The position numbers and the translations under genes are program-made. Positions 11,144 to 29,765 of a stretch of 64,000 nucleotides of DNA are shown piece after piece. Each line of letters begins with the position of its first letter. The first letter of the stretch is position 1. The DNA lies in assembly GCA_019637395.1 (NCBI GenBank), contig JAHBVR010000018.1, positions 1-64,000 of the forward strand. Reading direction: 5' to 3'. The notes beneath the pieces were generated by a model. It was not told the origin of the DNA and ran no database searches. It worked only from the letters and a program-made list of their open reading frames with translations. The DNA comes from Vulcanimicrobiota bacterium. GTDB lineage: Bacteria > Vulcanimicrobiota > Xenobia > Xenobiales > JADMJV01.

Positions 11144-11784
11144 GGCTCTTCCTCCTGATACATTCCCAAGAGCAGAATATCGGGTTGACTCCCGAGCGCA
11201 TCCGTGACTTTCAGTTGTTCGAGGGCTGAGTCTCGGGGAACCAGCACATTGACTTTGGTTTTGACGGTCTGCTGGCCGAAGCGGAATTCATTGATGGGGC
11301 GGGAGCGGGGACGTTCTTTTTGCATTTGCTCGCGGGTGCCGTAAAACAGGGCTCCGCTGGGGCAAACGGTGGCGCACATGGGCTTTTTGCCCACCGAGGT
11401 GCGGTCGTAGCACATATCGCACTTCATCATCAGATTGAAGCCGGACACGGAAGCACCGCGTCCCGACTCCATTTTGGGCACGCCGAAGGGGCAGGCCAGC
11501 ACGCAGTTACTGCAGGCGATGCAGCGCGATTTGCGGGCCGTCTGCACCACCCCGTCGGGAGTGCGCTTGATGGCGTCGGCCGGACAGACCTGCGCGCAGG
11601 TGGGGTCTTCGCAGTGCATACAGACCACCGGCACCGTCTGCACGCTGCGTTCCCGATCGATGGTCTCCAAATGGATCATGGAGACCCCTTTATGGGTATC
11701 GCATTCCGAGCAGGCCTGAAAACAGGCTTTGCAGCCGATACAGCGGTTGGCGTCGATGAAAAATTCCATCTTCTCAGGAACCAT
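11140..11784 (-). CDS. Four-cluster ferredoxin subunit (NarH/DmsB/NrfC-like)
   Basis: A 214-residue protein with four cysteine groups typical of 4x[4Fe-4S] electron-transfer subunits: [37 protein letters not shown] and [11 protein letters not shown] with a later [10 protein letters not shown]. It has no Tat signal, so it works on the cytoplasmic side. It would pass electrons from the cytochrome b or Rieske to the molybdenum subunit encoded just upstream (11-nt overlap). Confidence 0.9.
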
Positions 11785-13990: not shown

Positions 13991-15026
13991 CGCGCGAAAT
14001 TCCTTTCCAAGCCTCGCCTTGAGACAGGCCCAACAAAGCTCGGCGGCAGGCGGGACAGACTTGCTGATAGTGCCGCTGCTCATCCAGCTCGTAGTGAAAC
14101 CCCAGTTGTTTTTCGACCGTCATTAAATCCTTGACGTGCATTTGGGAAGCAAAGGGACGGTCGCAGCGCAGACAGGGCTGCTGGGTTTCCTTGCCGCCGA
14201 CCTCGTGGTAGAAATTCACGCCCAGCTGGGCGGGCCGCTGAAAAATGTGAAAGAACTTGCCGAAAGGCAGCCAGATCAAAGTGGCGATCACCGTGACCGC
14301 GTGCAGCAGGGCCAGGAACTCGTAGCCGTAACCTTTCATCCAGGTATAGCTGGCCGTCAGCATCAGTCCGGTGACGCTGATGGCAAAGAGCAAGATGAGC
14401 GGCGCCCAATCTTCGGCAAACTGCTGCAGCGCCTGCGCGCCCGCGTCCCGCAAGCGCCGGCGCAGAGCCATCAGGCAACCGGCGATGACCAGAAAAGAAG
14501 CCCACACCAGCGCATGGAAGAGGAGAAAGCCAAACAGGCTCTCGGTGGGAAAGGCAAAGGTCGGGATTCCGAACACATGCACTCGATAAAAGTCGAGACG
14601 ATCCGCGTCGGTGGCGAAATGAATCCAACCGAAGACCAGCGGGAAGGTCACGGCCGAAGCCAGGATACAGCCCCACATCAGCAGCATATGCGTTAGCCAG
14701 CGCCGTTTGCTGCGCCGGAAGATAAATTCGTTGGCGGCGAATTCCCCCAGCACGCGATGCAGCCAGACCCGGCAGTTGGCCAGCAGATGACCGGGCCGAA
14801 AGAAAACCGTCCAACCACGCCGCCAGTACATGGCGGTGGGTGGACGCTGCAACCACATGGCATAACGATAGGCCACTCCGAAAGTGGCGAAAAGCGTGGA
14901 AAAAGTATAACCGATCAAAGCCGCGTCAAAATTGTGAAAGTCCCGCGAGCCGGCGGCGATGGCAAAAGCCAACAGCAGAGTGGCTGTGAGAGCCAGCATC
15001 CCGGCATTCCAACGTTCTCGCGTCAT
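13983..15026 (-). CDS. Cytochrome b (NarI/HdrE-like) with C-terminal CxxC-CxxC tail
   Basis: A 347-residue membrane protein with six predicted helices. Candidate heme histidines lie in [19 protein letters not shown] and LLHAVTV with GKFFHIF. Residues from about 290 form a cytoplasmic tail with CLRCDRP and CPACRRA, a likely metal knuckle. It probably oxidises quinol for the Mo/Fe-S subunits downstream. It follows RIC after 60 nt, where a small GGGGC/GCCCC hairpin (15069-15084) and an ATCGT-TTT-ACGAT palindrome (15046-15058) lie. No Dnr box is seen there, so read-through from the RIC promoter is likely. Confidence 0.78.
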
Positions 15027-15086: not shown

Positions 15087-15773
15087 TCAGGTGGCCAACT
15101 GAAGAGCACGGGGAAAGAGGATATGGTTCTCGGCATGAACGTGGAGATGTGTATCTTCTTCGAGTTCCGCCAGTCCTGACAACATGGAGCGATAGGTCGT
15201 GCAGGCTCCCTCCGGGGGCGCGTAGCCCCGAGTCAGCTCTCTGAGCTGAGCCAAGGCGTCACCCGATTGGCCGTGCTCAGTCTCCATGACTCCGATGATG
15301 CGCTGCAGCGGAACCTGGGTGTGACCGTCTCTTTCCAATCGGCAAATGGCCGGAAAGAGAATCTGTTCTTCCTTGGCCATATGCTCCAGCATCTCCGACG
15401 AGAAGGCGTGGAATATGCGCCGCACTTCGATGAGTTCCGGGTGGCTGCTTCCGTGCACGGCCGCCACCCGTTCCACCTGGCGAGAGAGCAAGGGTAAGCA
15501 TTCTCGCAGGTAGTCGTGGTGCAGGCTTACGATATGCTCCACCAACTGGGTCAAATTCAGGTCCTGCAGTGTCTTTTCCGCGGGGTCCTCCAGGCTCTGA
15601 GCAATTTGCTCCAAGACAGCCTTGACATCGAGTGCTTTGTCCGCACAGGCGGCGCTCAAAGAGCGGCGGCCGTGGCAGCAGTAGTCTATACCCAGTCTGT
15701 CCATGAGTCGCGACAGAGAAGGGCGATGGGTGACCAGGTCGGCCACTTTGGTCTCAGCATCCAGGATATTCAT
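15087..15773 (-). CDS. ytfE: RIC/ScdA/YtfE di-iron protein, Fe-S cluster repair
   Basis: A 228-residue protein. The ScdA_N domain has the paired-cysteine DYCCHG motif. A hemerythrin-like domain follows with the metal ligands SLHHDYLRE, LEHMAKEEQILFP, METEHGQSG and HVHAENHILFP. RIC proteins repair Fe-S clusters damaged by NO. The ATG at 15773 is chosen because AAAGGAGT stands 8 nt before it. A Dnr-type box (15833-15846) is centred 66.5 nt upstream and predicts a transcript start near 15798 with a 25-nt leader; TACCGT (15805-15810, minus) is the -10. The nar-like genes follow. Confidence 0.92.
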   Translation of the reverse strand: MNILDAETKVADLVTHRPSLSRLMDRLGIDYCCHGRRSLSAACADKALDVKAVLEQIAQSLEDPAEKTLQDLNLTQLVEHIVSLHHDYLRECLPLLSRQVERVAAVHGSSHPELIEVRRIFHAFSSEMLEHMAKEEQILFPAICRLERDGHTQVPLQRIIGVMETEHGQSGDALAQLRELTRGYAPPEGACTTYRSMLSGLAELEEDTHLHVHAENHILFPRALQLAT

Positions 15774-15832
15774 GTCGGGATACTCCTTTCGTTCCAGAGT
15801 CACCACGGTAATCTGAGGAGGGCGCTCTATCC

Positions 15833-15846
15833 TTGATGTAAGTCAA
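15833..15846. promoter_or_regulatory. Divergent Fnr/Dnr box, RIC-nar and methyltransferase-P450
   Basis: TTGATGTAAGTCAA is a perfect match to the TTGAT-N4-(A/G)TCAA consensus. Its centre, 15839.5, is exactly 41.5 nt from the methyltransferase ATG (15881; -10 TATAGT at 15869-15874). On the other strand, TACCGT places a start near 15798 for RIC. Confidence 0.85.
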
Positions 15847-15880
15847 ATACTTGAGGCAGGGGATGGGTTATAGTGCTGGC

Positions 15881-16672
15881 ATGGACTACCTTAAATCCGC
15901 CGCCTATTGGGTTCGAGCCGCGCGCCATCCCAAAGCCGCCCTCGATCAAGTAGCCGCCCAGAACTACTTGCTGCCGGCCCAGGTGCACCGCCAGGTTCGC
16001 CACCGCCAGTTGCAATTTTTGGAGGATATCCTGCGCCGCTGCAAGACCCCTCCCCGGGTGCTCGATCTGGGTTGTGGCCCGGGTTGGTGGGCCACTCAGT
16101 TGGCCCACCTGGCCCGGAGCTGGTCGGGCTTTGACATTGCTCCGAGTTTTATCGAACACGCCCGCCGTGAGGCCCAGGAGAAAGGGCTTGCCCACCTGCA
16201 ATTTGAGGTGAGCAACTTGCTTACGGTCGATCAGGGACGGAATTTCGAGGTGGTGGTCCTGGGGGGAACTCTGGGCTATATCAACGACTGGGATTTGCGC
16301 CCCTTGATGGAGAATGTGCGCGCTCACCTGGTGCCGGAGGGCGTGGTCTATGTTCGAGTTTCCGTCATTCCCGGTATCTATCCGCGCGTTGTCTGGAACG
16401 GCGAATACCAGATCGCTTACCGCAAGCCGGCGGAGTACCTGGAAGTCTTTCAGAAAGCCGGCTTCTCCGCTACTTGCGAGCGCGACTACGCCTTTACCGA
16501 AGGTTCCCTGGCCACCGCTTATACGGCACTGGCCCGCTGGTTGGGTCGGACCGGAATGACCGCCTACCGCAATGCCTTGCGCCTCCGTCCGCTCAGTTTC
16601 GGCCTGGCCCGAATCCTGCTCGACCTGACTCCCCTACCCCAATCCATGCAGTTCGTTTTGCGACTCGCGTGA
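15881..16672 (+). CDS. Class I SAM-dependent methyltransferase
   Basis: A 263-residue protein with motif I VLDLGCGPGWWATQL near residue 60, an acidic GFDIAPSF, and VVVLGGTLGYI at motif II. The substrate is unknown. The ATG at 15881 coincides with the start predicted from the box at 15833-15846 and the TATAGT -10, so the transcript is probably leaderless. The stop overlaps the GTG of the P450 gene, so the two are coupled and likely act on the same compound. Confidence 0.82.
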   Translation: MDYLKSAAYWVRAARHPKAALDQVAAQNYLLPAQVHRQVRHRQLQFLEDILRRCKTPPRVLDLGCGPGWWATQLAHLARSWSGFDIAPSFIEHARREAQEKGLAHLQFEVSNLLTVDQGRNFEVVVLGGTLGYINDWDLRPLMENVRAHLVPEGVVYVRVSVIPGIYPRVVWNGEYQIAYRKPAEYLEVFQKAGFSATCERDYAFTEGSLATAYTALARWLGRTGMTAYRNALRLRPLSFGLARILLDLTPLPQSMQFVLRLA

Positions 16673-17796
16673 AGACTTCACCGGACTGGGACCCGCGCGC
16701 CCCCGAGGTGCTCCAAGATCACGGCGCCGCCTGCAGCCACATGCGCGGGCACTGCCCGGTCGCTTACAGCCCCTATTTGGGCTGGTCCCTCTTTCGCCAT
16801 CAAGACATCCAGCGCGTACTGCACGATCACGAGACCTTCAGCAACGTGGTTTCAACTCATCCGGCTGTGCCCAACGGCATGGATCCCCCCTTGCATACAC
16901 ACTATCGGCGCCTTCTCGACCCCTATTTTTCGGCTACCGAGATGGAGCGCTTTGAGCCGGTCTGCCGGGAGATCGCGGCCACCTGCCTGCGCTCCTTGCC
17001 CGGACAAGGTGAGGTGGATTTTTGTGAGAGCTTCGCCGAGCCCTTCGCTCTGAGTGTTCAGTGCGCTTTCACGGGCTGGCCCGGGGAGGTTAAAGAGCGG
17101 CTGCGGCAGTGGCTAAAGAACCAACAGAAAGCCACCCTGGCCGGTGATCGCGAAGCGACTGCCCGCCTGGCCGGCGAATTTGAAGATTGCGTCCGGGGCA
17201 TTCTGGCGGCCCGCCGGCTTCAGCCGCAAGCCGACCTGACCACGCGCCTGCTGCAAGAGACCCTGAGCGAGACTGAGATCATCAGCATCCTGCGCAACTG
17301 GACGGTGGGAGAATTGGGCACCATCGCCGCCGCCGTCGGCATTCTCGTCCACTACCTGTGTGTTCATCGAGAAGTGCAAAGCAGGCTGCGCCGCCAACCG
17401 GCAGAGCTGGCCCCGGCCATCGAGGAAATCCTGCGGCTGGAGGCTCCGCTGCTCTCCAATCGCCGCCTGGTCAAGCAGGCCACGCAAATCGGCCAGCACC
17501 GCCTGGAAGCCGGCGACCGCGTCACCTTGATGTGGGCCTCAGGCAACCGGGACGAAACGGTGTTTCCTGACTCGGCCAGCTTTCGGCCGGAACGGGACCA
17601 GGAGCAAAACCTGCTGTATGGCTCCGGCATTCACGCCTGCCCGGGGGCTCCGCTGGCGCGCCTGGAATTGAGGGTGGCGCTGCAATGCCTGCTGGAAGGC
17701 ACGCGGGAGCTGGAGTTGAGCCAACAACGGGAGCCGGTCCGAGCCACCTATCCCGCCGCCGGCTTTGCCAGCCTTCCCATCGTCGTCAAGGCTTGA
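16669..17796 (+). CDS. Cytochrome P450
   Basis: A 375-residue P450 from a GTG overlapping the methyltransferase stop (GTGA). The heme-thiolate loop is YGSGIHACPGAPLAR, the ExxR motif is EEILR, and the family's PERF-like motif is FRPER. The I-helix reads WTVGELGTIAAAVG. Aligned on the usual AGxET, the acid and alcohol positions appear to be Leu and Gly, so conventional O2 activation may be altered. With the strong Dnr-type box it is a candidate for an NO-linked or peroxygenase-type P450; that function is inference only. It converges with the membrane gene at 17786 (11-nt overlap). Confidence 0.88.
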   Translation: MKTSPDWDPRAPEVLQDHGAACSHMRGHCPVAYSPYLGWSLFRHQDIQRVLHDHETFSNVVSTHPAVPNGMDPPLHTHYRRLLDPYFSATEMERFEPVCREIAATCLRSLPGQGEVDFCESFAEPFALSVQCAFTGWPGEVKERLRQWLKNQQKATLAGDREATARLAGEFEDCVRGILAARRLQPQADLTTRLLQETLSETEIISILRNWTVGELGTIAAAVGILVHYLCVHREVQSRLRRQPAELAPAIEEILRLEAPLLSNRRLVKQATQIGQHRLEAGDRVTLMWASGNRDETVFPDSASFRPERDQEQNLLYGSGIHACPGAPLARLELRVALQCLLEGTRELELSQQREPVRATYPAAGFASLPIVVKA

Positions 17797-18274
17797 GCTG
17801 CCAGTGCCCTTCTTCCTGGAAGGTGATCAGTTGCACGCGGCCGGCGCCAAAATCCAGTTGCCCTTGATAGCCGGGAAGCAGGTTCTCCTTGACTCCTTCC
17901 AGAGGTTCCGGCCGGAACTCCACCTCTACCCGGTGGCGCCCGGGAGCCACCGCCAGTTCTTCCAGAACGGAAAGGGGCCGATCATGGCGCACCCCGGCCG
18001 GCTCGATGCGTTTTTCCAGCAGCGGCCGGCCATCCAGAAGGACCCGCAAAAGGTAACTGCGCATGCGCACCTGGTAGGCCTGATCCGGCGGCAGCCGCAT
18101 GTGGGCCGGCAGATTGGGGTCCTGGGCGATCGGCACCTTGATCTCCTGACCGTTGCAGCGCCAACTGAGCCGCAAGGTGGCGTGGGCGGGGCTTTCTCCC
18201 CATGGGATCCGGGCTGACCAACCGAGCCCCAGCAAGAGGATAAAGAGACCGAATAAGAGTCTAAGTCTGGCCAT
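17786..18274 (-). CDS. Membrane-anchored periplasmic protein of the NO-reductase operon
   Basis: A 162-residue protein with one N-terminal helix (LLFGLFILLLGLGW) and a beta-rich exported domain that includes APGRHRVEVEF. No cofactor motif is visible and I do not recognise a family. It is last in the operon and overlaps the cytochrome b fusion gene by 14 nt. It may be an assembly or structural factor for the NO-reducing complex. Confidence 0.65.
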   Translation of the reverse strand: MARLRLLFGLFILLLGLGWSARIPWGESPAHATLRLSWRCNGQEIKVPIAQDPNLPAHMRLPPDQAYQVRMRSYLLRVLLDGRPLLEKRIEPAGVRHDRPLSVLEELAVAPGRHRVEVEFRPEPLEGVKENLLPGYQGQLDFGAGRVQLITFQEEGHWQLKP

Positions 18275-19835
18275 CCTGGACCTCCGAACTACGGCAACGA
18301 AGTTCTCCCTCAGGAAGGGACTGCCCGGCCGGATCTTTCAGCAATTCCTGGCGAAAAGCTAAAAGCTCCCGCCGCGCCCGCTCCACCTCCACGCCGGGAC
18401 AGGCAAACAGACGCACGCGGCGCCGATCCACCCGTGCCTGCAACTCCGCTTCGCGGTCTTCATAAACCCGCAGGCGGAGCCATTTCGGACCCTCACGCTG
18501 CGAACAATCTCGCTCCGGACAGGTGAGCACGAAGACACCCGCCGCCCCCTTGCGCAGAAAAAGCTCCAGCACCGAGGTATGAATGGACCCGCAGCAGCCG
18601 GTGGGATAGCAATGAATACCCGGAATCGCTGACCAGCCAGGGTGTTCTCCGCTGCCCCAGCGGCAGGCGAGCAGAACCACGTCTCCCTCCCGCCAGTCCC
18701 GAGTGGACGCAAACTGTTCGGCGGCACGCAACTGATCTCGGCCGGTCCGCTGCGGCGGCCCCACTCCCATGGGCGCGCAGGAAGCGGCGCACAGGCCACA
18801 ACTAACGCACAGATCCGAGTTGACCAGCGCCACCAGGGGAGAATGCCGCCCGTCCAGCAAGTGGGTGCGCTTGACCATCTCGATGGCATCGTAGGGGCAA
18901 TCTTGCACGCACTGGGTGCAGCCGGTGCAACTGCTCTCGTCCACCACCGAGGCCTGAGCCCGGCCGGGCCCGTCCACGGCCCACCACCAGGGCAGAGAGC
19001 CCAATCCCAGCAAGAGCAGCCCCAGAGCCAGCAGAGTTCCGCCTGTCCCCAGCTTCTCAGCGGCCGGTAACCAGAAACCATACCAGGGGTCCAGATAAAC
19101 CCTGCCCGGAAGGCGTAAGAGATCGGCCGGCGCGGCCAGCGGCACAGGCAGGCACAGAGCCAGCCCGGCCAGGCCCCAACCATAGGCACGAACCAGATGG
19201 CGTTCCGGCCAGTAGCGGGCCCGGGCCGTTCTGGAGGTATGTGCCAGAAAGAGGAAGACCAGCACCAGCGGCAAGGCCACATGCAGAAAGATCAGCATGA
19301 AGAAAAAGGATTCTCCGAGCGCCTGGTTATCGGCAAAGATGCGGCCCGGCGGCTCGGAAAAGAAGGGCAGGCCGGCCAGGAACTGGATGCCCTGCACCGC
19401 TAGCTTTTCCCCTTGCTCATCCCAGACCATGACCAATCCCAGCACACCGATGAAGATCATCAGTCCCAGCAGCGCCAGACCGCTCAACCAGGCCCGGCGG
19501 CGGGGCCCGGAAGTGCGCCCCCCCTGCAGCATGCGCAGAGCATGAAAGAAAACGGCCACCACAGCCGCATCCGAGGCATAGCGGTGCAGTCCACGCAACC
19601 AGCCGAGCGCCCATTGCCCCTGAACCCATTGGACCGATTCGTAGGGAGCGCCGACCTTGTAAAAGAAGAGCAGGGGCAGGCCGCTGGCCACCACCAGGGC
19701 CAGCAAGTAGACGGCCAGCACTCCGCTTTGATAAGTGGGATTGTAGTCGGGGCCGAAAAACCAGGAGACCAGGCGTTCCCAGGGCGCCAGCCAGCTTCCC
19801 AGAAGGCGCGATAGCTTTGGTTTACGGGGTATCAT
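18261..19835 (-). CDS. Cytochrome b / 2x[4Fe-4S] ferredoxin / MvhD-like fusion protein
   Basis: A 524-residue fusion. The ATG at 19835 is chosen because it overlaps the SCO stop and begins the cytochrome b homology. Residues 1 to about 320 are a bc1/b6-like cytochrome b: two H-x13-H pairs (from HRYASDAAV and from HVALPLVLV) predict two hemes b. Next come CTGCTQCVQDCP and CVSCGLCAASCAP, two [4Fe-4S] motifs. The last ~150 residues match the MvhD/hydrogenase delta-subunit domain (LLACRWGS, CYPTGCCGS, LTCPERDCS). It probably feeds electrons to the CuA subunit encoded upstream. The combination is unusual. Confidence 0.85.
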   Translation of the reverse strand: MIPRKPKLSRLLGSWLAPWERLVSWFFGPDYNPTYQSGVLAVYLLALVVASGLPLLFFYKVGAPYESVQWVQGQWALGWLRGLHRYASDAAVVAVFFHALRMLQGGRTSGPRRRAWLSGLALLGLMIFIGVLGLVMVWDEQGEKLAVQGIQFLAGLPFFSEPPGRIFADNQALGESFFFMLIFLHVALPLVLVFLFLAHTSRTARARYWPERHLVRAYGWGLAGLALCLPVPLAAPADLLRLPGRVYLDPWYGFWLPAAEKLGTGGTLLALGLLLLGLGSLPWWWAVDGPGRAQASVVDESSCTGCTQCVQDCPYDAIEMVKRTHLLDGRHSPLVALVNSDLCVSCGLCAASCAPMGVGPPQRTGRDQLRAAEQFASTRDWREGDVVLLACRWGSGEHPGWSAIPGIHCYPTGCCGSIHTSVLELFLRKGAAGVFVLTCPERDCSQREGPKWLRLRVYEDREAELQARVDRRRVRLFACPGVEVERARRELLAFRQELLKDPAGQSLPEGELRCRSSEVQDGQT

Positions 19836-20688
19836 GCGGGACCTCGAGGCGCGCCACGGCGTCGCGCAACCAGGCCTGACTGGGGCTATTGAAGCGATAG
19901 CGAAGGCGGGCCCGGGCATCGACCACCAGCACCAGCGCGGGGTGCAGGATCTCGCCGGTATTGGGATTCCTTTCAAAAGTCAGCGAGAAAGCGGCCAGCG
20001 CGCTTTCCACCTGGTCCACCTCGCCGCCCAACAGGAGCGAATTCTCCGGCAACCGCCACCATCGTGCCAGACCGGCCAGCGAGCCGCAGGTATCGCGGCG
20101 GGGGTCGAGAGTGACGATCGCCAGCCGGCAGCGGCCCGACTCGGCCACCGCCACCAGATTTTCCAGCAAGGAGGGGCAGACGGTCTGGCAATGCGCGTAG
20201 GCGAAGCTGATCAGAGTGGTGTCACCCAGCAATTGCCGGGCCGTGAAGGCTCGCCCGAACTGGTCCTGCAGCTCGGGGGTGGGGCAAGCTTCATCCAACT
20301 CCGGGTAGTCTCGAGGCAGCGGCCCGCTGCTCGGGCTGCTCGACAAGCTTGGAGCCTGGGCCACTCTCCAGCTCAGGTAGCTCAGGGTGGAAAAGGGCAG
20401 GCTCAATAAGACAACCAGCACCAGAGGCCTGGGCCAGAGGCGCGTGAGGCGCTCCAGCTGAGCCCGGCAATCTCGGCCCATCAAGGCAAACAAAGCCAGC
20501 AACATCGGCAGCGGAGCGGCCAGCGTAATCCATCCATGCAGGTCGGGCAGGCCGTTCTCCAAAGTGCCGAAGCACAGGTCACGCGTGCGCACCAACCAGT
20601 CCGGACCGCCCTGGGCCACCGGCGAGAGGGCCAGCCAGACCCAGGCGGCGCTGGTCAGACACCAGAAGAGGTAGAGCCAGAGCGCCAC
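19822..20688 (-). CDS. SCO-family copper chaperone with membrane domain
   Basis: A 288-residue protein. The N-terminal ~115 residues hold three membrane helices. A SCO/thioredoxin domain follows with CQTVC (C-x3-C), LDPRRD and the distal His in EILHPALV. It starts at a GTG four bases after the subunit I stop. The likely client is the CuA centre of the neighbouring subunit II (C158/C162), because SCO proteins assemble CuA. Confidence 0.85.
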   Translation of the reverse strand: MALWLYLFWCLTSAAWVWLALSPVAQGGPDWLVRTRDLCFGTLENGLPDLHGWITLAAPLPMLLALFALMGRDCRAQLERLTRLWPRPLVLVVLLSLPFSTLSYLSWRVAQAPSLSSSPSSGPLPRDYPELDEACPTPELQDQFGRAFTARQLLGDTTLISFAYAHCQTVCPSLLENLVAVAESGRCRLAIVTLDPRRDTCGSLAGLARWWRLPENSLLLGGEVDQVESALAAFSLTFERNPNTGEILHPALVLVVDARARLRYRFNSPSQAWLRDAVARLEVPHDTP

Positions 20689-20691
20689 GGC

Positions 20692-22398
20692 CTAGCCGAC
20701 CTTCCAGAGCATCGAGAGAACTTTCCAGTTGGTGAAGTAGTAGAGCACGAAGCACACGAAGAAAATCACCACCAGCACCACCGTGCCCGGATTGCCCTGG
20801 CGGTGGGCTTCATCTGCCTGCTCTTGCGAGTGGGTCTGGCGGGGTAAACGAACCACCCCGGGGGGCAATCCCGGCCCGCCCGAGCGAATCTCTTCATCGC
20901 TCAGAGTTTTGCCGAAGAAAACACTGGCTACGGCGATCAGGCAGTAACTGATACCGCCCAGGAAAGCCAGGATGCCGCCCACGCCCATGGCGGCCAGAAA
21001 CAGGTCGACCACGGGAGGAAACTGCACGGGAAAGGGCGCGTGGGTGAAAGATACATCCCAGTGCCGGCGCGGCACCCCAAAGGTACCGGCGTAGGTCATG
21101 GCGATACCCATCAGGGTAATCCCCGCGCCGAAAAGATAGGGTTGGATTTGCGCCAGTTTGTAGAAAGCCACGCGCTTGCGGAAAATCAGCGGCAGCAGAT
21201 AATAGGTGACTCCCATAAAGCAGAGGGCGGTGCCCCCGACCACGGTCATATGAAAATGGCCCGGCAAACGCATGGTGTTGTGAGCGATGATGTTGATCTG
21301 CTCGGTCCCGATGACCACCCCGGTAATGCCGCCGCCGAATCCGAAAATCACCAGCGATAGCCACAGGGCCGAGAAACCCGGGTCTCCCCAGGGAGCCCTG
21401 GTGAGCCACTGAAAGCGGCCCTGGGTGAAGCCGCGCAGACGCTGGCCGGTTTCAATGCCGGCCGGCACCGTAAAGCCGTGCACCATACTGGCCAGCACGG
21501 CCAGATACATGGCGTAGCTGGTGTTCCAGACTTTCCAGGCCGGTCCCACTCCCGGATCGACCAGCAGGTGGTGAGCCGAGGCCATGGAGATGAACAACAC
21601 GTAGAGAAAGAAGGCGGTGCGGCTGACTCGCTCATTGAGGACCACTCCCCCTACCGTCAGGGCGGCCAGCAGGTACCAACAGGAGACGTGGGCGGCCACG
21701 TTGATTTGTTGAGAAGAGTGGCCTAGAGCCCAGAAAACCATGCGGTAGACTTCTGGATCCAGCTGCATCCAGCCCAGCGACCAGAAGAAGGTGGGCACAT
21801 AGATCAAAGCGCCGTGAACCAGCGTGATGACGGCGATGATGGCCGCCGTCAGCGCTCCGAAACTGACTAGAGGTATCGAGCCCGTATAAGTCTTCTCGCG
21901 GCGCGCCACCACCAGGGTGGCGAAAAAGAGTAACGTCGAGATGAGTGCTCCCACCGCAAAGAGGATGATTCCCAGATAGTAAGCCGGGTGGGCTTTTAAA
22001 GGCACGTAGGAAGTAAAGAGCACGTCGGCCTTGCCGGCAAACACGAAGTAGTTGGTGGTGCAGGCGCCGATCAGCATCAGCCAGTAGCCCAGCCAGCCGA
22101 GCTTGGGGGCGGGCTGCCGGCAATTGAGCAAAATGGGGCCGGCAAAATACAGCACCGCCATTTCAAAAAAGATGATAAAGAAGATCAGCATGTTCAGGCC
22201 GTGAGCTGTCAGGATTCGATAGTACCAATCGGCCGGCAGCAAATGCACCGCCTGCCAGCGCGTCAAGGCCAGCAGCAAGGCGGCGCACACTCCGATCAGG
22301 AAATGCACTACCGCGGTGACGGCGTGCCAACGCAGGAGCGATGCTGCTTGCGATTCGATTTTCAGTCCGGTGACCGGACAGGTGCGAAAGGAAATCAC
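20692..22398 (-). CDS. Heme-copper NO reductase subunit I, eNOR-like
   Basis: A 568-residue protein with about 14 helices, homologous to heme-copper oxidase subunit I, closest to B-family (ba3) oxidases. Ligands: H66 (HGLNM, low-spin heme), H227, H276 and H277 (CuB), H381 and H383 (GHFH). The Tyr cross-linked to the CuB His in O2 reductases (GHPIVY in ba3) is replaced: here GHSSQQ places Gln231 at that position. This substitution, with a CuA subunit II, is what I recall for the eNOR family of NO reductases. It lacks the cNOR/qNOR glutamate motif (HLWVEG). NO reduction to N2O is therefore inferred, and the nos and nir neighbours support it. Confidence 0.85.
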   Translation of the reverse strand: MISFRTCPVTGLKIESQAASLLRWHAVTAVVHFLIGVCAALLLALTRWQAVHLLPADWYYRILTAHGLNMLIFFIIFFEMAVLYFAGPILLNCRQPAPKLGWLGYWLMLIGACTTNYFVFAGKADVLFTSYVPLKAHPAYYLGIILFAVGALISTLLFFATLVVARREKTYTGSIPLVSFGALTAAIIAVITLVHGALIYVPTFFWSLGWMQLDPEVYRMVFWALGHSSQQINVAAHVSCWYLLAALTVGGVVLNERVSRTAFFLYVLFISMASAHHLLVDPGVGPAWKVWNTSYAMYLAVLASMVHGFTVPAGIETGQRLRGFTQGRFQWLTRAPWGDPGFSALWLSLVIFGFGGGITGVVIGTEQINIIAHNTMRLPGHFHMTVVGGTALCFMGVTYYLLPLIFRKRVAFYKLAQIQPYLFGAGITLMGIAMTYAGTFGVPRRHWDVSFTHAPFPVQFPPVVDLFLAAMGVGGILAFLGGISYCLIAVASVFFGKTLSDEEIRSGGPGLPPGVVRLPRQTHSQEQADEAHRQGNPGTVVLVVIFFVCFVLYYFTNWKVLSMLWKVG

Positions 22399-22408
22399 CC
22401 GAGTGTCC

Positions 22409-22942
22409 TCACTCTTCCACCAGGATTTTGCCGGTCATAATGTGATGTCCGACTCCGCAGAACTCGTTGCAGATGATGCGCAAATCACCGGAGCGATTCG
22501 GCATCACTTTGAGTCCATAATCATAACCGGGCACGACCTGGAAATTGAGGTTCATGGGGTACAGGCTGAACCCGTGATTGATATCGAAAGAGGAGAGATG
22601 CAGAGTGTAGCTGGCCCCCTTCTTCAACTTGAGCACGGGCCTCCAGGACCACATCGATGCCTCGAGATAGAGATCGGCTCCCGGTGGAGGCTGAACGACC
22701 GGGATGCCCTTTTCTGTACCCACCTGGTATTCCTGAATAAAGCGTTCGGTGCGCTGGCGAAATTCTTGGGGAGTGGTACGGCCACGAATTCCCGAGGGAT
22801 TCTGCCCGCCTTTCCAATGCCAGAGGGGCATGATCGCGAACATGATCATACACCAGACGAAGGAAACCTTGATCCAGGTGTTTTCCTGGGAGCCAGCCGG
22901 CTTCCACCAAATTCCTTGCGGCGACGTCAGAGCGGAGTGCAC
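22409..22942 (-). CDS. NO-reductase subunit II with CuA site
   Basis: A 177-residue protein: one N-terminal helix (about 24-40) and a cupredoxin domain. The complete CuA set is visible: H123 (FDINHGF), C158, E160, C162, H166 and M169 (CNEFCGVGHHIM). It accepts electrons from a periplasmic donor and passes them to the hemes of subunit I. A CuA site distinguishes it from cNorC. The GTG start is 6 nt after the small-subunit stop; the exact start is uncertain. Confidence 0.9.
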   Translation of the reverse strand: MHSALTSPQGIWWKPAGSQENTWIKVSFVWCMIMFAIMPLWHWKGGQNPSGIRGRTTPQEFRQRTERFIQEYQVGTEKGIPVVQPPPGADLYLEASMWSWRPVLKLKKGASYTLHLSSFDINHGFSLYPMNLNFQVVPGYDYGLKVMPNRSGDLRIICNEFCGVGHHIMTGKILVEE

Positions 22943-22948
22943 GGGCGC

Positions 22949-23116
22949 CTACGGCAATCTGGAAGCCGGGAGAGTGAGGATTTCGATCATCCCCCAGCCC
23001 GTATAAAATACAAACATCACCAGCATGCCCGCCCCCAACAAAAGGAAGGGGCTATCCATCACCCGCTGGCCCCAGGGCACCGCCTGGCTCTCTTGGGAAT
23101 CGTTCGAAACCTCCAC
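22949..23116 (-). CDS. 55-residue single-helix subunit of the NO reductase
   Basis: A short gene with GTG start at 23116 and TAG at 22949. GGAGG stands 5 nt before the GTG. The product has a hydrophilic start (VEVSNDSQESQ) and one membrane helix (LLLGAGMLVMFVFYTGWG). It resembles in size and position the small accessory subunit (IIa) of ba3-type oxidases. It is the first gene of the operon, 25 nt after the transcript start predicted from the box at 23176-23189. Confidence 0.75.
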   Translation of the reverse strand: MEVSNDSQESQAVPWGQRVMDSPFLLLGAGMLVMFVFYTGWGMIEILTLPASRLP

Positions 23117-23175: not shown

Positions 23176-23189
23176 TTGACTTAGATCAT
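23176..23189. promoter_or_regulatory. Divergent Fnr/Dnr box between the NO-reductase and nos operons
   Basis: TTGACTTAGATCAT, centred at 23182.5. On the minus strand TACAAT (23148-23153) predicts a start at 23141 for the NO reductase. On the plus strand TAAGTT (23212-23217) predicts a start near 23224 for nosZ. One palindrome thus serves both NO and N2O reduction. Confidence 0.8.
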
Positions 23190-23247: not shown

Positions 23248-25254
23248 ATGAAAACCTCATGGAAATGGCCGGCCGCCATCACCACGCTGACGGGGTTGCT
23301 CTTTGCCGGAGCCTGCACCCCCAACCCAACGGGCAACGCCCCCGCCGGCGGCGCCATTCCCACCGACGTCATGAGCGTAGCCCGGGAGCGCGGCCTGACG
23401 CCCGACGACCTGTATGCCGCCGCCAAAACCTACATGCCTTCCGGCAAACACGACGACTACGTACTCTTTGCCTCCGGTGGACATAGCGGCCAGGTGCACG
23501 TCATCGGCGTGCCCAGCATGCGCCTGTTGAAGACCATCGCCGTCTTTACTCCCGAACCCTGGCAGGGCTACGGCTACGGAGGCGGCCCTTCTGAAGTGCT
23601 TAAAAAGGGAAACATGCCCTCGGGCAAAGAGTTGACCTGGGGGGACACGCATCACCCCAACCTCTCGGAAACCAAGGGCAGTTACGACGGCCGCTTTCTC
23701 TTCATCAACGACAAGGCCAACGCGCGCCTGGCCGTCATCGATCTGCGCGATTTCGAGACCAAGCAGATTATCAAAAACCCGAATGCGATCTCCGACCACG
23801 GCGGTTCCTTCGTGACTCCCAACACCGAATATGTGGTGGAAGGACCGCAATATGCCACGCCGATCGGCTGGGAGTATTCTGACATCAAAAACTACAAAGA
23901 GAAGTATCGGGCCCTGTTGACGTTCTGGAAGTTCGACCCGCTGGCGGGCCGAATCAATGTGGCGCAATCTTTCCAGATGGAACTTCCCCCCTACTTCCAG
24001 GATCTGGCCGATGCCGGCAAGGGGGCTTCCGACGGCCTGGTCTTTGTCAACTCCTTCAACACCGAGATGGCTACCGGCGGAATCGAGAAGGGTGAGCCTC
24101 CCTTCGAAGCGGGCGCCAGCAAGAACGACGTGGACTACCTGCATATCATCGACTGGCGCAAAGCCGCCCAGATCGCCAAATCGGGACCGACCCGGACCGT
24201 CAACGGCATGAAAATCATCGGGCTGGATACGGCCGTGAAAGAAAAGCTGCTCTACTTCACCCCGGAACCCAAAAGCCCGCACGGAGTCGATGTTACGCCC
24301 AGTGGCGAGAGCATCGTGGTGGGCGGCAAGTTAGACCCTCACGTAACCGTCTATTCCACCGCCAAAATTCGGGCCGCCATGGCCAAAGGCTCGCAAAATA
24401 AGGACCCCTTTGGAGTTCCCATCTTGAGCCTGGATGACACCAAAGAGGCTCAGGTGGAATTGGGCCTGGGTCCGCTACACACCGTGTTTGACAATCAGGG
24501 CTACGCCTATACCTCGATGTTCCTGGACTCGGCCGTGGCCCGCTGGACCCTGGGCGGCGCCGACAAAGGCCAGCACCCCGAACCGGACTGGACGTTGGTG
24601 CAAAAACTACCCGTTCACTACAACATCGGCCATATCGCCTCGATCGAGGGCGACACGGCCACCCCCGGCCAGGGCTACGTGGTGGCCCTGAACAAGTGGT
24701 CCACCGACCGCTTTCTCAACCTCGGCCCCCTGCTGCCCCAGAATTTCCAACTGGTCGACTCGGCCCGTCCGGGTGAATCCATGAAAGTTCTCTACGATAG
24801 CCCCATCGGCGTGGCCGAGCCGCACTATGCCCAATTGATGCGCGCGGATCGGCTCAAGCCCTACGAGGTCTATCCCTTCGTGGGCTTCAACCCGGAAACC
24901 GGCCAGAAAGATCCCAACGCCGTGCTCTCGCCCAAAGACGCGCGTATCGTGCGCAAGGGAAAAGTCGTCGAAATCTTCACTCCCGTCATCCGCAGTCACT
25001 TCTCCCCTGAGCACGTCACCGTTAATGAAGGGGACACGGTTATCTGGCACCTCACCAACATCGAAAGAACACGTGATGCCATCCATGGATTCTGCATCGG
25101 AGGCTACAACATCAACCTCAGTCTTGAGCCCGGAGAACACCAGACGGTTACCTTCAAGGCCGACCAGCCCGGCGTCTTCCCCTTCTACTGCACCGAGTTC
25201 TGCTCGGCCCTTCACCTCGAGATGATGGGCTACTTTATGGTGAAGCCGCGATGA
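23248..25254 (+). CDS. nosZ: Nitrous-oxide reductase, Sec-lipoprotein (clade II type)
   Basis: Reduces N2O to N2. It is 668 residues. The leader has no twin-arginine motif and ends in a lipobox (LLFAGAC), typical of clade II (Sec-exported) NosZ. The seven-bladed propeller with the CuZ histidines is represented by THHPNLSETKG, SDHGGSF and SPHGVDVTPSG. The C-terminal CuA domain has HGFCIGGYN and CTEFCSALHLEMMG. A GAGAGG lies about 10 nt before the ATG. It heads the nos operon, divergent from the NO reductase. Confidence 0.97.
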   Translation: MKTSWKWPAAITTLTGLLFAGACTPNPTGNAPAGGAIPTDVMSVARERGLTPDDLYAAAKTYMPSGKHDDYVLFASGGHSGQVHVIGVPSMRLLKTIAVFTPEPWQGYGYGGGPSEVLKKGNMPSGKELTWGDTHHPNLSETKGSYDGRFLFINDKANARLAVIDLRDFETKQIIKNPNAISDHGGSFVTPNTEYVVEGPQYATPIGWEYSDIKNYKEKYRALLTFWKFDPLAGRINVAQSFQMELPPYFQDLADAGKGASDGLVFVNSFNTEMATGGIEKGEPPFEAGASKNDVDYLHIIDWRKAAQIAKSGPTRTVNGMKIIGLDTAVKEKLLYFTPEPKSPHGVDVTPSGESIVVGGKLDPHVTVYSTAKIRAAMAKGSQNKDPFGVPILSLDDTKEAQVELGLGPLHTVFDNQGYAYTSMFLDSAVARWTLGGADKGQHPEPDWTLVQKLPVHYNIGHIASIEGDTATPGQGYVVALNKWSTDRFLNLGPLLPQNFQLVDSARPGESMKVLYDSPIGVAEPHYAQLMRADRLKPYEVYPFVGFNPETGQKDPNAVLSPKDARIVRKGKVVEIFTPVIRSHFSPEHVTVNEGDTVIWHLTNIERTRDAIHGFCIGGYNINLSLEPGEHQTVTFKADQPGVFPFYCTEFCSALHLEMMGYFMVKPR

Positions 25255-25898
25255 GTGAGCTGAAAGTCGTGCTGGCCGACGGCAGCCAGCGGCCGCTCAA
25301 CGACTTCTTCTGGCCGCACCTGCTGCTGATGCTGGCCAGTCTCTTGCTCTGCCTGTCGGTCTTCCTGCCCTTCTGGTCCATCAAGATGAATGCGCCCCAG
25401 TTCCCCGATGGACTGAAAGCGGTTCTCTATATCGATCGCGTCGAAGGCCACGTGCAGGAGATCGACGGGCTCAATCACTACCTGGGCATGCCTCCGCTGG
25501 ATGAAGGCGGCAAGTTAGAGCGCAAGGTTTCCTTGGGAGCCGTCGGCCTGATGAGCCTGCTCATCTTAGGGACCCTGTTTGTGCACAACCGCTGGGCCGG
25601 CGCCATGGGTGTACCGGCTCTGGTCTTCCCCTGGGTTTTTCTGGCCGACCTGCAGTTAATTCTCTACCGCTATGGCCACAGTGTGGACCCCGAATCGGCT
25701 CTGGGGGGAGCCATCAAGCCCTTTACTCCGCCGGTGATAGGCGTCGGGAAGATCGGTCAGTTTATTACTGAAGCGTCCTTTGGAGCCGGTTTTTACCTCT
25801 CTCTGGCGGCGGCCGGTTGCGTGCTGGCCGGCCTGTGGATGCACCGCCGCATCTACCGTGAAGTGGCTCTGGCTCGCCGGCGCGCGGGAGTGCCATGA
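25251..25898 (+). CDS. nosB: NosB-like membrane protein
   Basis: A 215-residue protein with four to five predicted helices; the first is LLLMLASLLLCLSVFLPFW and a periplasmic loop follows (SIKMNAPQFPDG, DGLNHYLGMPP). Proteins of this kind stand directly after nosZ in clade II nos clusters and are called NosB; their function is unresolved. Its ATG overlaps the nosZ stop, and its stop overlaps the nosD start. Confidence 0.75.
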   Translation: MSELKVVLADGSQRPLNDFFWPHLLLMLASLLLCLSVFLPFWSIKMNAPQFPDGLKAVLYIDRVEGHVQEIDGLNHYLGMPPLDEGGKLERKVSLGAVGLMSLLILGTLFVHNRWAGAMGVPALVFPWVFLADLQLILYRYGHSVDPESALGGAIKPFTPPVIGVGKIGQFITEASFGAGFYLSLAAAGCVLAGLWMHRRIYREVALARRRAGVP

Positions 25899-28081
25899 AG
25901 AGGTGGCTGGCCTGGCTGCTGCTGACCGTCCCCGCCCTGGGCCGGCCGGTCAGCGATGACCGCCAGTTGCAACAGGCCCTGGCCCAGGCCACCCCCGGGG
26001 AAACCATCGAGGTCTTACCCGGACACTATCGCGGTCCGCTGATTTTGAATCGGCCCGTGCGGTTGCTGGGCCAGGGTTGGCCGGTCATCGACGGTCATGG
26101 CCAGGGCACCATCATCACCGTCAATGCCGCCGACTGCCATATCGAAGGCCTGGTCATCCGCAACTCCGGTAGTGAACCGGAACTCGACCATGCCGGCGTC
26201 ACCCTCAATCAGCCGCGCGCCCGGGTCAAGAACAATCGATTCGAGAACGTGCTTTTCGGCATCTTCGTGGCTCGCTCCGACGATAGTTTGATCAGCGGTA
26301 ACGATATCGCCAGCCAGCAACGCTACGACCTGGGCCGCCGCGGCGATAGCGTGCGGGTTTGGTACAGCAAACGCGTCCAGGTTCTCGACAATTACGCCCA
26401 CCATAGCCGCGACCTGGTGGCCTGGTATTCTTCCGACCTGATCATGCGGGGCAATCGCGTCGAGGGCGGCCGCTACGGCCTGCACTTCATGTACTGTGAC
26501 GGAGCCCGGGTCGAAGGCAATCTGCTCAAAGACAACTCGGTGGGCATCTACACCATGTACAGCCAGGGTTTGAAGCTCGAATCCAACCGGGTCATCGGCT
26601 GCCGCGGCGCCAGTGGCTACGGCCTGGGCTTCAAGGATGCCGGTGATGTGACCGTGCGCAACAACATTCTCTGCGACAACCGGGCCGGCATCTTTGTCGA
26701 CAGCACCCCCTTGAAGCCCGATAGCTATGCGCGCTTTGAGGATAATGTGGTGGCTTACAACGATATCGGCGTGGCTCTTTTTCCCTCCGTAAGCGGCGCC
26801 CAATTTTCGGGAAATCGGTTTCATGAAAACTACGAACAGGTCTCGCTGGAGGGCGGGGGCCAGCAAAAAGGCAACGATTTTGGCGGGAATTATTGGAGCG
26901 ATTATGCCGGCTGCGATCTGGACGGCGACGGCCGTGGCGATCTTCCCTATCGTGCCGAGCGCCTTTTTGAACGCCTGGCCGACCATAACCCCAAGCTGCG
27001 CCTCTTCACGCAAACTCCCCTGCAGGAAGCGCTGGACTCGGCCGCACGGATGTTTCCGCTGGTCAATCCTCAGGCCAAGCTGGAGGACAGCGCTCCTCTG
27101 ATCAGCGCGGGTGTTTTACCGGCCCCCGAGCCGCAGCCGGCCGCTCGAGCTCACTGGCTGTGGTTGAGCACGCTGGTCGCGCTGGCGCTGGTAACCGGCC
27201 GCCTGCCGGCTCTGAGAAAGGTGGAAAGGAAACGCGCTATGTCAACCAGCCTGCGAATCCAAAGGGTCAATAAAAGCTATGGACCGAACCAAATATTAAA
27301 GGATCTTTGCCTGGAATTGGAGCCGGGCCGAGCGCTGGCCTTGTGGGGCCCGAACGGGGCCGGTAAAACCACGGTCATTCGCTGCTTGCTCGATCTGATC
27401 GAGTACGAAGGGGAGATCTACCTCGGCGCCTATTCTTGTCGCCGACAAGGACGCCAGGCCCGCGGTCTGCTCGGCTACGTCCCCCAGGAACTGAACTTCC
27501 ATGACGATCTCGGCGTGCTGGAAACCATGGAATTCTATGCTGTGCTGCGTTCCGCCGCTGTGGACAGCATCGGGCCCCTGCTGGCCCAGGTTGGACTGGC
27601 TGAAGTGGGCCAGCGCAAGGTCGGCCAGCTCTCCGGCGGGATGCGCCAGCGCCTGGCCCTGGCATTGGCTCTGCTGGGAGACCCACCACTGCTGGTCCTG
27701 GACGAGCCGACCTCCAATCTGGACGCCGAAGCCCGCGACGGTTTTTTGAATCTGCTGCAACAATTGAGGCAGCAAGGCAAAAGTCTTTTGTTTACCACTC
27801 ACAGGCGCGAAGAAGTTCTACGTCTGGCCGATCAGGTGGCCCTGCTGCAGGCCGGCTCGCCGGCCCGGCTGTGTGCCCCCGCCGACTTGCAAACGCACAA
27901 TCTGAAAATTCTTTTGGCCGGGGAGCAACTCGACTCAGCCGTGCAGGTCTTGCGTCGCGATGGCTTCCAGCCGGCGCGCAATGGCAGCGGGGTTTACGTC
28001 GAGGTGGCCAGGGACGCCAAAGCCGCCCCCATTCAAGCCTTGTTTTCGGCCGGAATCCCGGTGCTGGACTTCGAGATTTAG
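25895..28081 (+). CDS. nosD-nosF: NosD-NosF fusion: periplasmic beta-helix, TM helix and ABC ATPase
   Basis: A single 728-residue frame. After a signal peptide, residues ~20-400 are a NosD right-handed beta-helix (CASH repeats such as NNRFENVLFGIFV and FGGNYWSDYAG). A helix follows at ~420-437 (WLWLSTLVALALVTG). From Met449 comes NosF: Walker A GPNGAGKT, signature LSGGMRQRLA, Walker B LLVLDEPTSNLD, and the switch His in TTHRRE. NosDFY normally consists of separate proteins that mature the copper sites of NosZ. The fused topology (outside, membrane, inside) is consistent. An internal ATG at 27239 with its own ribosome site may release free NosF. Confidence 0.92.
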   Translation: MKRWLAWLLLTVPALGRPVSDDRQLQQALAQATPGETIEVLPGHYRGPLILNRPVRLLGQGWPVIDGHGQGTIITVNAADCHIEGLVIRNSGSEPELDHAGVTLNQPRARVKNNRFENVLFGIFVARSDDSLISGNDIASQQRYDLGRRGDSVRVWYSKRVQVLDNYAHHSRDLVAWYSSDLIMRGNRVEGGRYGLHFMYCDGARVEGNLLKDNSVGIYTMYSQGLKLESNRVIGCRGASGYGLGFKDAGDVTVRNNILCDNRAGIFVDSTPLKPDSYARFEDNVVAYNDIGVALFPSVSGAQFSGNRFHENYEQVSLEGGGQQKGNDFGGNYWSDYAGCDLDGDGRGDLPYRAERLFERLADHNPKLRLFTQTPLQEALDSAARMFPLVNPQAKLEDSAPLISAGVLPAPEPQPAARAHWLWLSTLVALALVTGRLPALRKVERKRAMSTSLRIQRVNKSYGPNQILKDLCLELEPGRALALWGPNGAGKTTVIRCLLDLIEYEGEIYLGAYSCRRQGRQARGLLGYVPQELNFHDDLGVLETMEFYAVLRSAAVDSIGPLLAQVGLAEVGQRKVGQLSGGMRQRLALALALLGDPPLLVLDEPTSNLDAEARDGFLNLLQQLRQQGKSLLFTTHRREEVLRLADQVALLQAGSPARLCAPADLQTHNLKILLAGEQLDSAVQVLRRDGFQPARNGSGVYVEVARDAKAAPIQALFSAGIPVLDFEI
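27223..27241 (+). promoter_or_regulatory. Internal ribosome-binding site and ATG for NosF
   Basis: GGAAAGGA (27223-27230) stands 8 nt before an in-frame ATG (27239-27241) that begins the NosF homology. No stop separates it from NosD, so the same frame can yield a fusion and a separate ATPase. Confidence 0.6.
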
Positions 28082-28090
28082 GAGCCTGAA

Positions 28091-28924
28091 ATGCTAGCCC
28101 AAAACCTTTGGAACATCGCTCGCAAGGAAACTCGGGATGCCAGGCGCAATCGCTGGTACTGGCTCTATACGGGGGCCTTCGCGGTCCTCTCCCTGGCCCT
28201 GGCCTCCACCGCTCTGCTCGGCTCCGGCTTCGGCGGTCTGGCCGGCTTTGGGCGCACCAGCGCCAGCATGATCAACCTGGTTCTGCTGGTGGTGCCTTTG
28301 ATGGGATTGACTTCCGGTAGCCTCAGTCTGGCCGGTGAGCGCGAGCGCGGCACGCTGGCCTACCTGCTGGCCCAGCCCCTGAGTCGGGCAGAAATCTTCT
28401 GGGGAAAATTCCTGGGACAGGTTCTGTCACTCGGTTCCAGCCTGGTATTGGGCTTCGGCCTGAGCGGTTTACTGCTGGCCCGCGCCGGCGGCACTCAGCA
28501 ATGGGCACTTTACGCCGCCCTGCTGAGCTTGAGCCTGTTGCTGGCTCTGGTCAGTCTCGGCCTGGGCTTTTGCGTCGGTGCTCTCTGCCAGCGCAGCAGC
28601 GCCGCCCTGGGCGCCAGCCTGGTGGTCTGGCTCGGGCTGGCCTTCTTCGCCGACCTTCTCCTGATGGGCCTGGCCAGCACTCACTGGCTACCGGTGCAGG
28701 GACTCTTCCATTGCACCCTGGCCAATCCGGTGCAGCTCTTTCGCCTCAGTTCCTTGCTCTACCTGCGCGCCAACCTCGAAGTCCTGGGTCCGGTCGGCGT
28801 CTATGCCACACGCACTTACCAGGACTGGACTCTGCCCGTGCTGCTGGCCGGGCTGGCTCTCTGGGCAACCCTGCCCGCACTTTTTTCCTACGCTATCTAT
28901 CGTAAAAGGAGCTACTTAGGATGA
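28091..28924 (+). CDS. nosY: NosY-type ABC transporter permease
   Basis: A 277-residue membrane protein with six helices. The N-terminal NIARKETRDARRNRW precedes helix 1, and GLTSGSLSLAGERERGTLAYLLAQPLSR is interrupted by the coupling-helix region typical of NosY/ABC-2 permeases. It partners the NosF ATPase domain in copper-site maturation of NosZ. It lies 9 nt after the nosDF stop and overlaps nosL by 4 nt. Confidence 0.92.
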   Translation: MLAQNLWNIARKETRDARRNRWYWLYTGAFAVLSLALASTALLGSGFGGLAGFGRTSASMINLVLLVVPLMGLTSGSLSLAGERERGTLAYLLAQPLSRAEIFWGKFLGQVLSLGSSLVLGFGLSGLLLARAGGTQQWALYAALLSLSLLLALVSLGLGFCVGALCQRSSAALGASLVVWLGLAFFADLLLMGLASTHWLPVQGLFHCTLANPVQLFRLSSLLYLRANLEVLGPVGVYATRTYQDWTLPVLLAGLALWATLPALFSYAIYRKRSYLG

Positions 28925-29373
28925 AACCCGAGCATTGGATCCTGGCAGCCTGCCTGCTGGCTGGCTGCGCCCGCACTGCCTCCCCGCCCCAGCCGCCCGA
29001 CCTCAAACTGGGTGAGATGAATTGTTCGCGTTGCGGCATGTCCATCGACGACGGCCGGTTTGCCGCCGCCCGCCAGGTCGGAGGAGTGCTTCGCCTCTAC
29101 GACGACGCCGGCGAGATGTTCTTGGAAAGAAAGCAAAGCCCGGCCGCAGACGAGTACCTGTGGGTGCGCGACTATAACGATCAAAAGTGGCTGGACGGAC
29201 GCACCTGCCGCTATCTCCGCGGGAGCAAAATTCGCAGTCCGATGGGCTTTCAGGTGGCGGCTACGGCGGATGAACTGGCGGCCGCTCCGCTGGCCGCCCG
29301 CTGGGGGTGCCAGGTACTCGATTTAGAGACTCTACAAAACCAATGGAACTCACAGGAGGAAAAACAACCATGA
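28921..29373 (+). CDS. nosL: NosL copper-binding lipoprotein
   Basis: A 150-residue lipoprotein (lipobox LLAGC). CSRCGMSI is the copper(I)-binding motif of NosL, the chaperone that hands copper to NosDFY and NosZ. The downstream MEFLERK-type region has here become GEMFLERKQ, and DYNDQKWLDGRTCRYLRG follows. It overlaps nosY and the cytochrome c gene. Confidence 0.93.
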   Translation: MKPEHWILAACLLAGCARTASPPQPPDLKLGEMNCSRCGMSIDDGRFAAARQVGGVLRLYDDAGEMFLERKQSPAADEYLWVRDYNDQKWLDGRTCRYLRGSKIRSPMGFQVAATADELAAAPLAARWGCQVLDLETLQNQWNSQEEKQP

Positions 29374-29765
29374 AACGTTCTCTCATCTTACTGGCGCTAC
29401 TCAGCTGGGGCTGCAACGGGCAGGCTCCCCCCGCCGCCACCAGTCCTTCCAGCGCGGCCACCACGGCGGAGCCCGCAGCGGTGGCCGCCAATCCAGTGGA
29501 AGCCGGCAAAAAACTCTATGAGTCCACCTGCTCGGCCTGCCACGCAGCTGACGGAGCCGGCGTCCCGGGCCTGGGCAAGCCCCTCAAAGGCAGCTCCATG
29601 CTGACGCTAAGCGATGCCGAGCTGGTTGACTTTATCAAGCAGGGGCGCGACACCAGCGACCCTAAAAATACCACCAAGGTCGCCATGCCGCCCAAGGGTG
29701 GCAACCCCGCCCTCAGCGACAATGACCTGGGCCAGATTGTCGCCTATCTGCGCAGCCTGAAATGA
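29370..29765 (+). CDS. Monoheme c-type cytochrome lipoprotein
   Basis: A 131-residue protein. The ATG at 29370 is chosen because AGGAGGA precedes it by 9 nt and a lipoprotein signal follows (LLSWGC). After an Ala/Pro/Ser-rich linker come CSACH (heme c) and AMPPKGG (axial Met). It is last in the nos operon and is a likely electron donor to NosZ, as for NosC in clade II clusters. It overlaps the nosL stop. Confidence 0.9.
   Translation: MKRSLILLALLSWGCNGQAPPAATSPSSAATTAEPAAVAANPVEAGKKLYESTCSACHAADGAGVPGLGKPLKGSSMLTLSDAELVDFIKQGRDTSDPKNTTKVAMPPKGGNPALSDNDLGQIVAYLRSLK

Follow-up and report, generated by a model that had tools for sequence, protein, structure and literature searches.

A putative eNOR-type nitric oxide reductase in a denitrification island of a Vulcanimicrobiota bacterium, with a proposed cytochrome b6/Fe-S/FlpD electron-input partner

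The eNOR family of nitric oxide (NO) reductases is already described and hence not new; citing papers trace it, as a B-family NO reductase, to Hemp & Gennis 2008 and Murali et al. 2024. In the passages of PMC8756737 used here, eNOR is defined by a glutamine at the active-site tyrosine position, and Table A4 of that paper gives the full code: glutamine in eNOR, tyrosine in O2 reductases, glutamate in cNOR and qNOR, asparagine in sNOR and CuANOR, and aspartate in gNOR. Another paper, citing Murali et al. 2024, presents eNOR as a biochemically characterised relative of the B-type oxygen reductases and states, in the part used here, that it reduces NO under micro-oxic conditions (PMC11388526). Passages in two further papers place the family beside copper nitrite reductase: an isolate that grows by converting nitrite to N2O has NirK together with an eNOR homologue (PMC13274419), and Ardenticatena has a NirK-eNOR operon (PMC4653789).

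The DNA analysed here (the window; 64,000 nucleotides from a Vulcanimicrobiota bacterium) encodes at 20692-22398 on the minus strand a B-type heme-copper catalytic subunit of 568 aa, with a GTG start at 22398. A Pfam search matched this protein, subunit I, to PF00115 (E 4.9e-65), and the NCBIfam oxidase models scored it far under their cut-offs (CtaD, 77.6 bits against 670.75). By sequence comparison with the PDB, its nearest solved structures are the T. thermophilus ba3 oxidases (E about 1e-47), and no NorB chain occurs among the 36 distinct PDB sequences that match at E ≤1. An AF2 model, which served for overall fold only (mean pLDDT 75.4, weak around residues 365-378), likewise had ba3 as its top fold match (TM 0.74). 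As a reading of the bare sequence had claimed, the translation contains all six heme- and CuB-binding histidines (H66, H227, H276, H277, H381 and H383), and aligning the ba3 motif GHPIVY (H233...Y237) with GHSSQQ (H227...Q231) places Gln231 at the site of the cross-linked tyrosine. The window enzyme thus has in common with the T. thermophilus ba3 oxygen reductase (1ehk) its fold, the six metal-ligand histidines and a CuA subunit, and differs from it by Y237 to Q231, Y244 to V238 and T312 to H307, as well as by an additional invariant glutamate, Glu79.

We gathered relatives with six peptide patterns, none of which spans residues 227-238 or 307, and obtained 84 distinct eNOR-like rows, made up of 80 loci from named genomes, the window, and plasmid copies from Thermus, Thermomicrobium and Defluviimonas. 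Glutamine occupies position 231 in every one of these (84/84), against tyrosine in all B-type reference rows (11/11). Q230, N233, V238 and H307 are equally constant (84/84); at positions 230, 231, 233, 238 and 307 the reference rows carry V, Y, W, Y and T (11/11). Moreover, E79 is invariant in the eNOR-like rows and occurs in none of the B-type rows (84/84 vs 0/11). Since the five-residue set and E79 are constant throughout, the glutamine is one of several linked changes, in which the ba3 Y244 to V238 and T312 to H307 exchanges accompany that of tyrosine to glutamine. Y244 and T312 of ba3 lie on the proton path; of the positions examined for the single cytoplasmic proton channel ascribed to eNOR, those corresponding to Y242, S304 and T310 are retained and those of Y244 and T312 have become V and H. 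Proton use by the window eNOR is something that we infer. The second C-terminal histidine is lost in a single row (1/84), that of the T. thermophilus TTHNAR1 plasmid (L087, 7983-9668), which retains the glutamine and has lysine at the H383 position, so that its protein may have lost the low-spin heme; this gene sits close to an annotated nitrite reductase.

A maximum-likelihood tree was built from 47 rows, comprising 28 of the 80 loci, the window, the three plasmid Gln copies and 15 references. All rows with glutamine (32/32) fell into a single clade (support 100/100) adjoining the B-type tyrosine rows (92/74), and the window enzyme clustered with two copies from metagenome-assembled genomes at 86-88% identity (support 100/100). 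The references were 11 B-type rows plus two A-type and two C-type paralogues from the window's own genome, with none of the named proven eNOR (Rhodothermus, Ardenticatena, Natronomonas) and no bNOR, sNOR, gNOR or nNOR among them. The Gln clade is distinct and stands beside B-type rows, and the tree, whose long branches drew a program warning, is compatible with an origin of this clade either inside or beside the O2 reductases.

The protein has the three features by which eNOR is recognised in sequence, the first two of which also figure in the eNOR-like pattern noted earlier: glutamine at the tyrosine site, a CuA cupredoxin subunit II beside subunit I, and a place on the B-family branch. These are what it has in common with eNOR as published in the passages used here, including descent from B-type oxidases. 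Gln231 stands in place of the cross-linked tyrosine of B-type O2 reductases, and equally in place of the asparagine of sNOR and bNOR and the aspartate of gNOR. bNOR (CuANOR) and sNOR have the B-type scaffold in common with the window enzyme, and bNOR also CuA; their active-site residue, in the published passages, is asparagine and not glutamine. cNOR and qNOR would catalyse the same reaction on a C-type scaffold with an active-site glutamate and a NorC or quinol domain, none of which the window enzyme has; its best PDB matches are B-type, in agreement with the earlier remark that the cNOR/qNOR signature is missing. The assignment of the 20692-22398 protein as a predicted eNOR is therefore supported by diagnostic residues and branch, rather than by grouping with a proven enzyme.

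Immediately upstream of subunit I lies subunit II (22409-22942, minus strand; 177 aa), which consists of a single N-terminal helix and a CuA cupredoxin domain with CoxB/CuA family matches. The full CuA site claimed for it is present (H123, C158, E160, C162, H166 and M169), with E160 found in 82/83 rows and the other five ligands in 83/83. Glu20, presumably the counterpart of ba3 Glu15, is retained in 82/82 rows. Next comes a single-helix ORF (22949-23116, minus strand; 55 aa, GTG start, GGAGG 5 nt upstream), located where B-type oxidases have a small IIa-like subunit; we assign it as IIa by position only, and ORFs of 41-60 aa occur at the same place in the Thermus, Thermomicrobium and Defluviimonas loci. 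Downstream of subunit I follow a membrane-anchored SCO1/SenC protein (19822-20688, minus strand; PF02630, E 3e-17), found in 76/80 relatives' loci and presumed to insert copper into CuA, and a fusion protein with cytochrome b6, 2x[4Fe-4S] and FlpD parts. The final gene (17786-18274, minus strand) encodes a secreted-looking 162-aa protein that had no match in a Pfam search and has matches in 50/80 relatives' loci. The operon had been placed at 20692-23116; that gene content is confirmed, but the minus-strand series (55-aa ORF, subunit II, subunit I, SCO1, fusion, 162-aa protein) reaches down to at least 17786.

The eNOR operon is embedded in a denitrification island. NirK with a C-terminal cytochrome c (1446-2891, plus strand; TIGR02376, 355.7 bits against a cut-off of 296.3) would be the source of NO, and is followed by an FGE-domain protein, presumably NirV-like, and then by SCO. 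A molybdopterin nitrate reductase (NasC/NapA-like; PF00384) with Fe-S subunit and membrane anchor occupies 11140-15026 on the minus strand, its NF047855 score of 763 bits lying under the cut-off of 1100, and the set including a NarK-like transporter spans 9274-15026. Between it and the eNOR operon lies RIC, a di-iron NO-damage repair protein (15087-15806, minus strand; TIGR03652, 237 bits, cut-off 204.7). On the other side, a clade II (Sec-type) N2O reductase gene, nosZ (23248-25254, plus strand; TIGR04246, 821.7 bits, cut-off 625), is followed on the same strand by accessory genes (25251-29765) for a membrane protein at the nosB place, a nosD-ABC ATPase fusion, a nosY-like permease, nosL and a cytochrome c, the nosB and nosY names being given by position and weak matches. 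Because nitrate reductase, NirK, eNOR and NosZ occur together, a complete route from nitrate to N2 is predicted to be encoded within about 30 kb.

The same region holds several other genes that we record here. The nosD-ABC fusion is a 728-aa ORF (25895-28081) that joins NosD to a NosF-like ABC ATPase. A gene pair at 5165-7757, for a TIGR04053 radical SAM protein and a protoporphyrinogen oxidase, lies under an FNR-like box, and on the Thermus plasmid a radical SAM homologue is found close to eNOR and nitrite reductase. The island also contains a gene for a ParE-family toxin (8937-9260), belonging to a type II toxin-antitoxin pair. Genes for a cytochrome P450 and a methyltransferase-like protein (15851-17796) adjoin eNOR, and in one relative (L002) homologues of the two (53% and 56% identical) are found between nirK and eNOR. 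The P450 (16474-17796) was considered as a P450nor and set aside, the name NO reductase being absent from the 60 PDB matches listed for it (there are 341 further ones).

Scanning the window for FNR/DNR-type boxes with the pattern TTGAYNNNNRTCAA, allowing ≤1 mismatch, gave 12 where 3.76 were expected, a number reached in 0/100 shuffles. Four of them lie just upstream of operons: those of nirK (1398-1411), of the protoporphyrinogen oxidase/radical SAM pair (at 7793), of RIC (15833-15846, an exact match) and of eNOR and nosZ, between which stands TTGACTTAGATCAT (23176-23189, plus strand). As the other 8 of the 12 lie elsewhere, some boxes must be due to chance. Two further FNR-like boxes, one of them exact, are at 60922-60935 and 62177-62190, the former about 35 nt upstream of an ORF on the minus strand (59540-60886). 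Similar boxes were found upstream of eNOR in three relatives (L001, L002, L004) and not in L003 or L012; by the strict FNR consensus, only 4 of the examined eNOR upstream regions reach 9/10, and the best of the window reaches 8/10.

The arrangement of eNOR and nosZ in divergence on a shared box, as first read from the sequence, thus holds in the window but is not a trait of the family, with nosZ within about 7 kb of eNOR in 0/80 relatives (many flanks being shorter) and nirK near it in 10/80. An initial count had made nosZ a frequent neighbour (38/83 loci); we rejected it as an artefact of the CuA domain that NosZ and subunit II have in common, and it fell to 0/80 once matches on subunit II and those of <40% identity were dropped. 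The rarity of these neighbours, together with RIC close by and the published statement on micro-oxic NO reduction by eNOR (PMC11388526, in part), would suit a bifunctional or detoxifying enzyme that removes NO under such conditions, its denitrification surroundings being incidental. We regard this as unlikely, though deserving of consideration, given that NirK, NosZ and eNOR here have box-type promoters in common, and that close relatives gain and lose eNOR, partner and nosZ jointly, all three being present in four genomes (G000, G136, G137, G140) and all three absent from G135, G138 and G139.

The fusion gene of the eNOR operon (18261-19835, minus strand), which the earlier reading did not mention, encodes by Pfam a cytochrome b6-like domain with two bis-His heme sites, a 2x[4Fe-4S] domain and an FlpD/MvhD-like domain. 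Its ORF opens at 19976 and the likely start is the ATG at 19835, giving about 524 aa. Numbered from the 571-aa open frame, and with rows of <430 aa dropped before counting, its His131, 145, 232 and 246 are invariant (67/67 rows), the eight [4Fe-4S] cysteines are kept in 65-66 of 66 rows, and the candidate ligands of the FlpD domain (C438, C461, H466, C486 and C491) in 62-65 of 64-65 rows. FlpD/MvhD domains handle low-potential cytosolic donors in heterodisulfide reductase systems.

The partner is present in almost all (42/44) eNOR loci that have ≥4.5 kb on both sides, and in the two others (L028, L049) it is located elsewhere in the genome. Within the phylum, it occurs at ≥75% identity in exactly the same 4 of 149 genomes as eNOR, its other matches being distant homologues (≤35%). 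Of 298 Gemmatimonadota genomes, 66 gave an eNOR, 67 the partner and 63 both; of these 63, 58 have the two within 4 kb, one at 8.7 kb and four on other contigs; three genomes have eNOR with no partner found and four the partner with no eNOR detected (genome gaps possible), and since these genomes are related, Fisher values for the co-occurrence overstate its significance. Furthermore, the sole partner match in 72,556 plasmid records adjoins the Defluviimonas eNOR. No partner turned up in the roughly 8 kb flanking the Gln enzymes of Thermus and Thermomicrobium. Given these loci and the three Gemmatimonadota genomes in which it was not found, not every eNOR can depend on it.

Based on this co-occurrence and ligand conservation, we propose that the fusion protein may be a dedicated electron-input module of eNOR. 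That the gene works for NosZ or some other enzyme, and adjoins eNOR by chance, seems improbable. NosZ does adjoin it in the window, and clade II nos clusters typically include electron-feeding Fe-S and cytochrome proteins; the partner nevertheless stays with eNOR in relatives whose locus has no nosZ, no nosZ is annotated in the 17.7 kb shown around the Defluviimonas plasmid pair, and two genomes (G153, G155) have the eNOR locus and partner with no nosZ over the cut-off. Under the electron-input proposal, we tentatively suggest, as a possibility held with some reserve, that in a large bacterial clade eNOR belongs to a wider respiratory assembly that has its own electron bridge through the membrane, beyond a cytochrome c-fed unit of subunits I and II, such that NO reduction could draw directly on quinol or low-potential cytosolic donors. 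The window operon and those of most relatives differ in this added gene from eNOR as published, none being described in the passages used here. A search of the literature for a link of eNOR with FlpD or cytochrome b returned, in the passages retrieved, nothing beyond RME88945.1, which the appendix of PMC8756737 places among ORFs with cytochrome c domains; like the partner it combines cytochrome b6, Fe-S and FlpD domains in a single ORF, and unlike the partner it is not linked to eNOR in those passages.

The source genome (7.66 Mb, 36 contigs, 97.9% complete) encodes five PF00115 proteins: two A-type oxidases, whose motifs read HPEVY and HPAVY, two CcoN-like (cbb3-type) proteins and the eNOR. 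Searched as a whole, the genome yielded neither a cNOR nor a qNOR, there being none among these five, and no cd1 NirS, and eNOR is its sole recognisable heme-copper NO reductase. For this reason, and with the NCBIfam oxidase matches all below cut-off, norB searches would miss this denitrifier, as the sequence-only reading had stated. One CcoN-like protein (L084, contig C32) is divergent, has HHLLG after the CuB histidines and adjoins a copper-ATPase-like ORF; the motif made it a candidate for a second tyrosine-less NO reductase, rejected because the CcoN alignment appears to keep the tyrosine that we take to be cross-linked. That the window enzyme is still an O2 reductase, high-affinity and ba3-like, working with no cross-linked tyrosine, is highly improbable: it has the fold and cofactor ligands of ba3, O2 reductases as its neighbours in sequence space and a genome otherwise aerobic, but the tyrosine of all 11 B-type rows is replaced in all 84 rows of its branch, where Y244 and T312 have also given way to V and H, and its gene surroundings are those of denitrification.

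The most likely explanation is a respiratory eNOR that serves a complete denitrifier and has in the fusion protein a putative electron-input module; the eNOR part is well supported. With considerable confidence, we take the locus to encode an eNOR-type NO reductase that would be the sole heme-copper NO reductase of a complete denitrifier, controlled by an FNR/DNR-type regulator and fed in part by the fusion module. Subunits I and II, with the small single-helix subunit, would convert 2 NO to N2O at the heme/CuB centre, to which electrons would pass via CuA and the low-spin heme b. Exchange of tyrosine for glutamine would abolish the His-Tyr cross-link, and with it the radical-forming residue required for O2 splitting, and may tune the site for N-N coupling. 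CuA would be supplied partly by the fusion module, which would take electrons from quinol or from a donor in the cytosol and pass them through the membrane to a carrier in the periplasm, and eNOR would connect NirK to NosZ in a nitrate-to-N2 island under the FNR/DNR-type regulator.

Models of N2O emission and gene surveys lean largely on counts of cNOR and qNOR. In the present case, a predicted complete nitrate-to-N2 denitrifier has eNOR alone, which general annotation labels a cytochrome oxidase. The near one-to-one co-occurrence makes the partner a second marker for genomes with eNOR, and the cytochrome b/Fe-S/FlpD protein provides a testable lead on how eNOR may be supplied with electrons.
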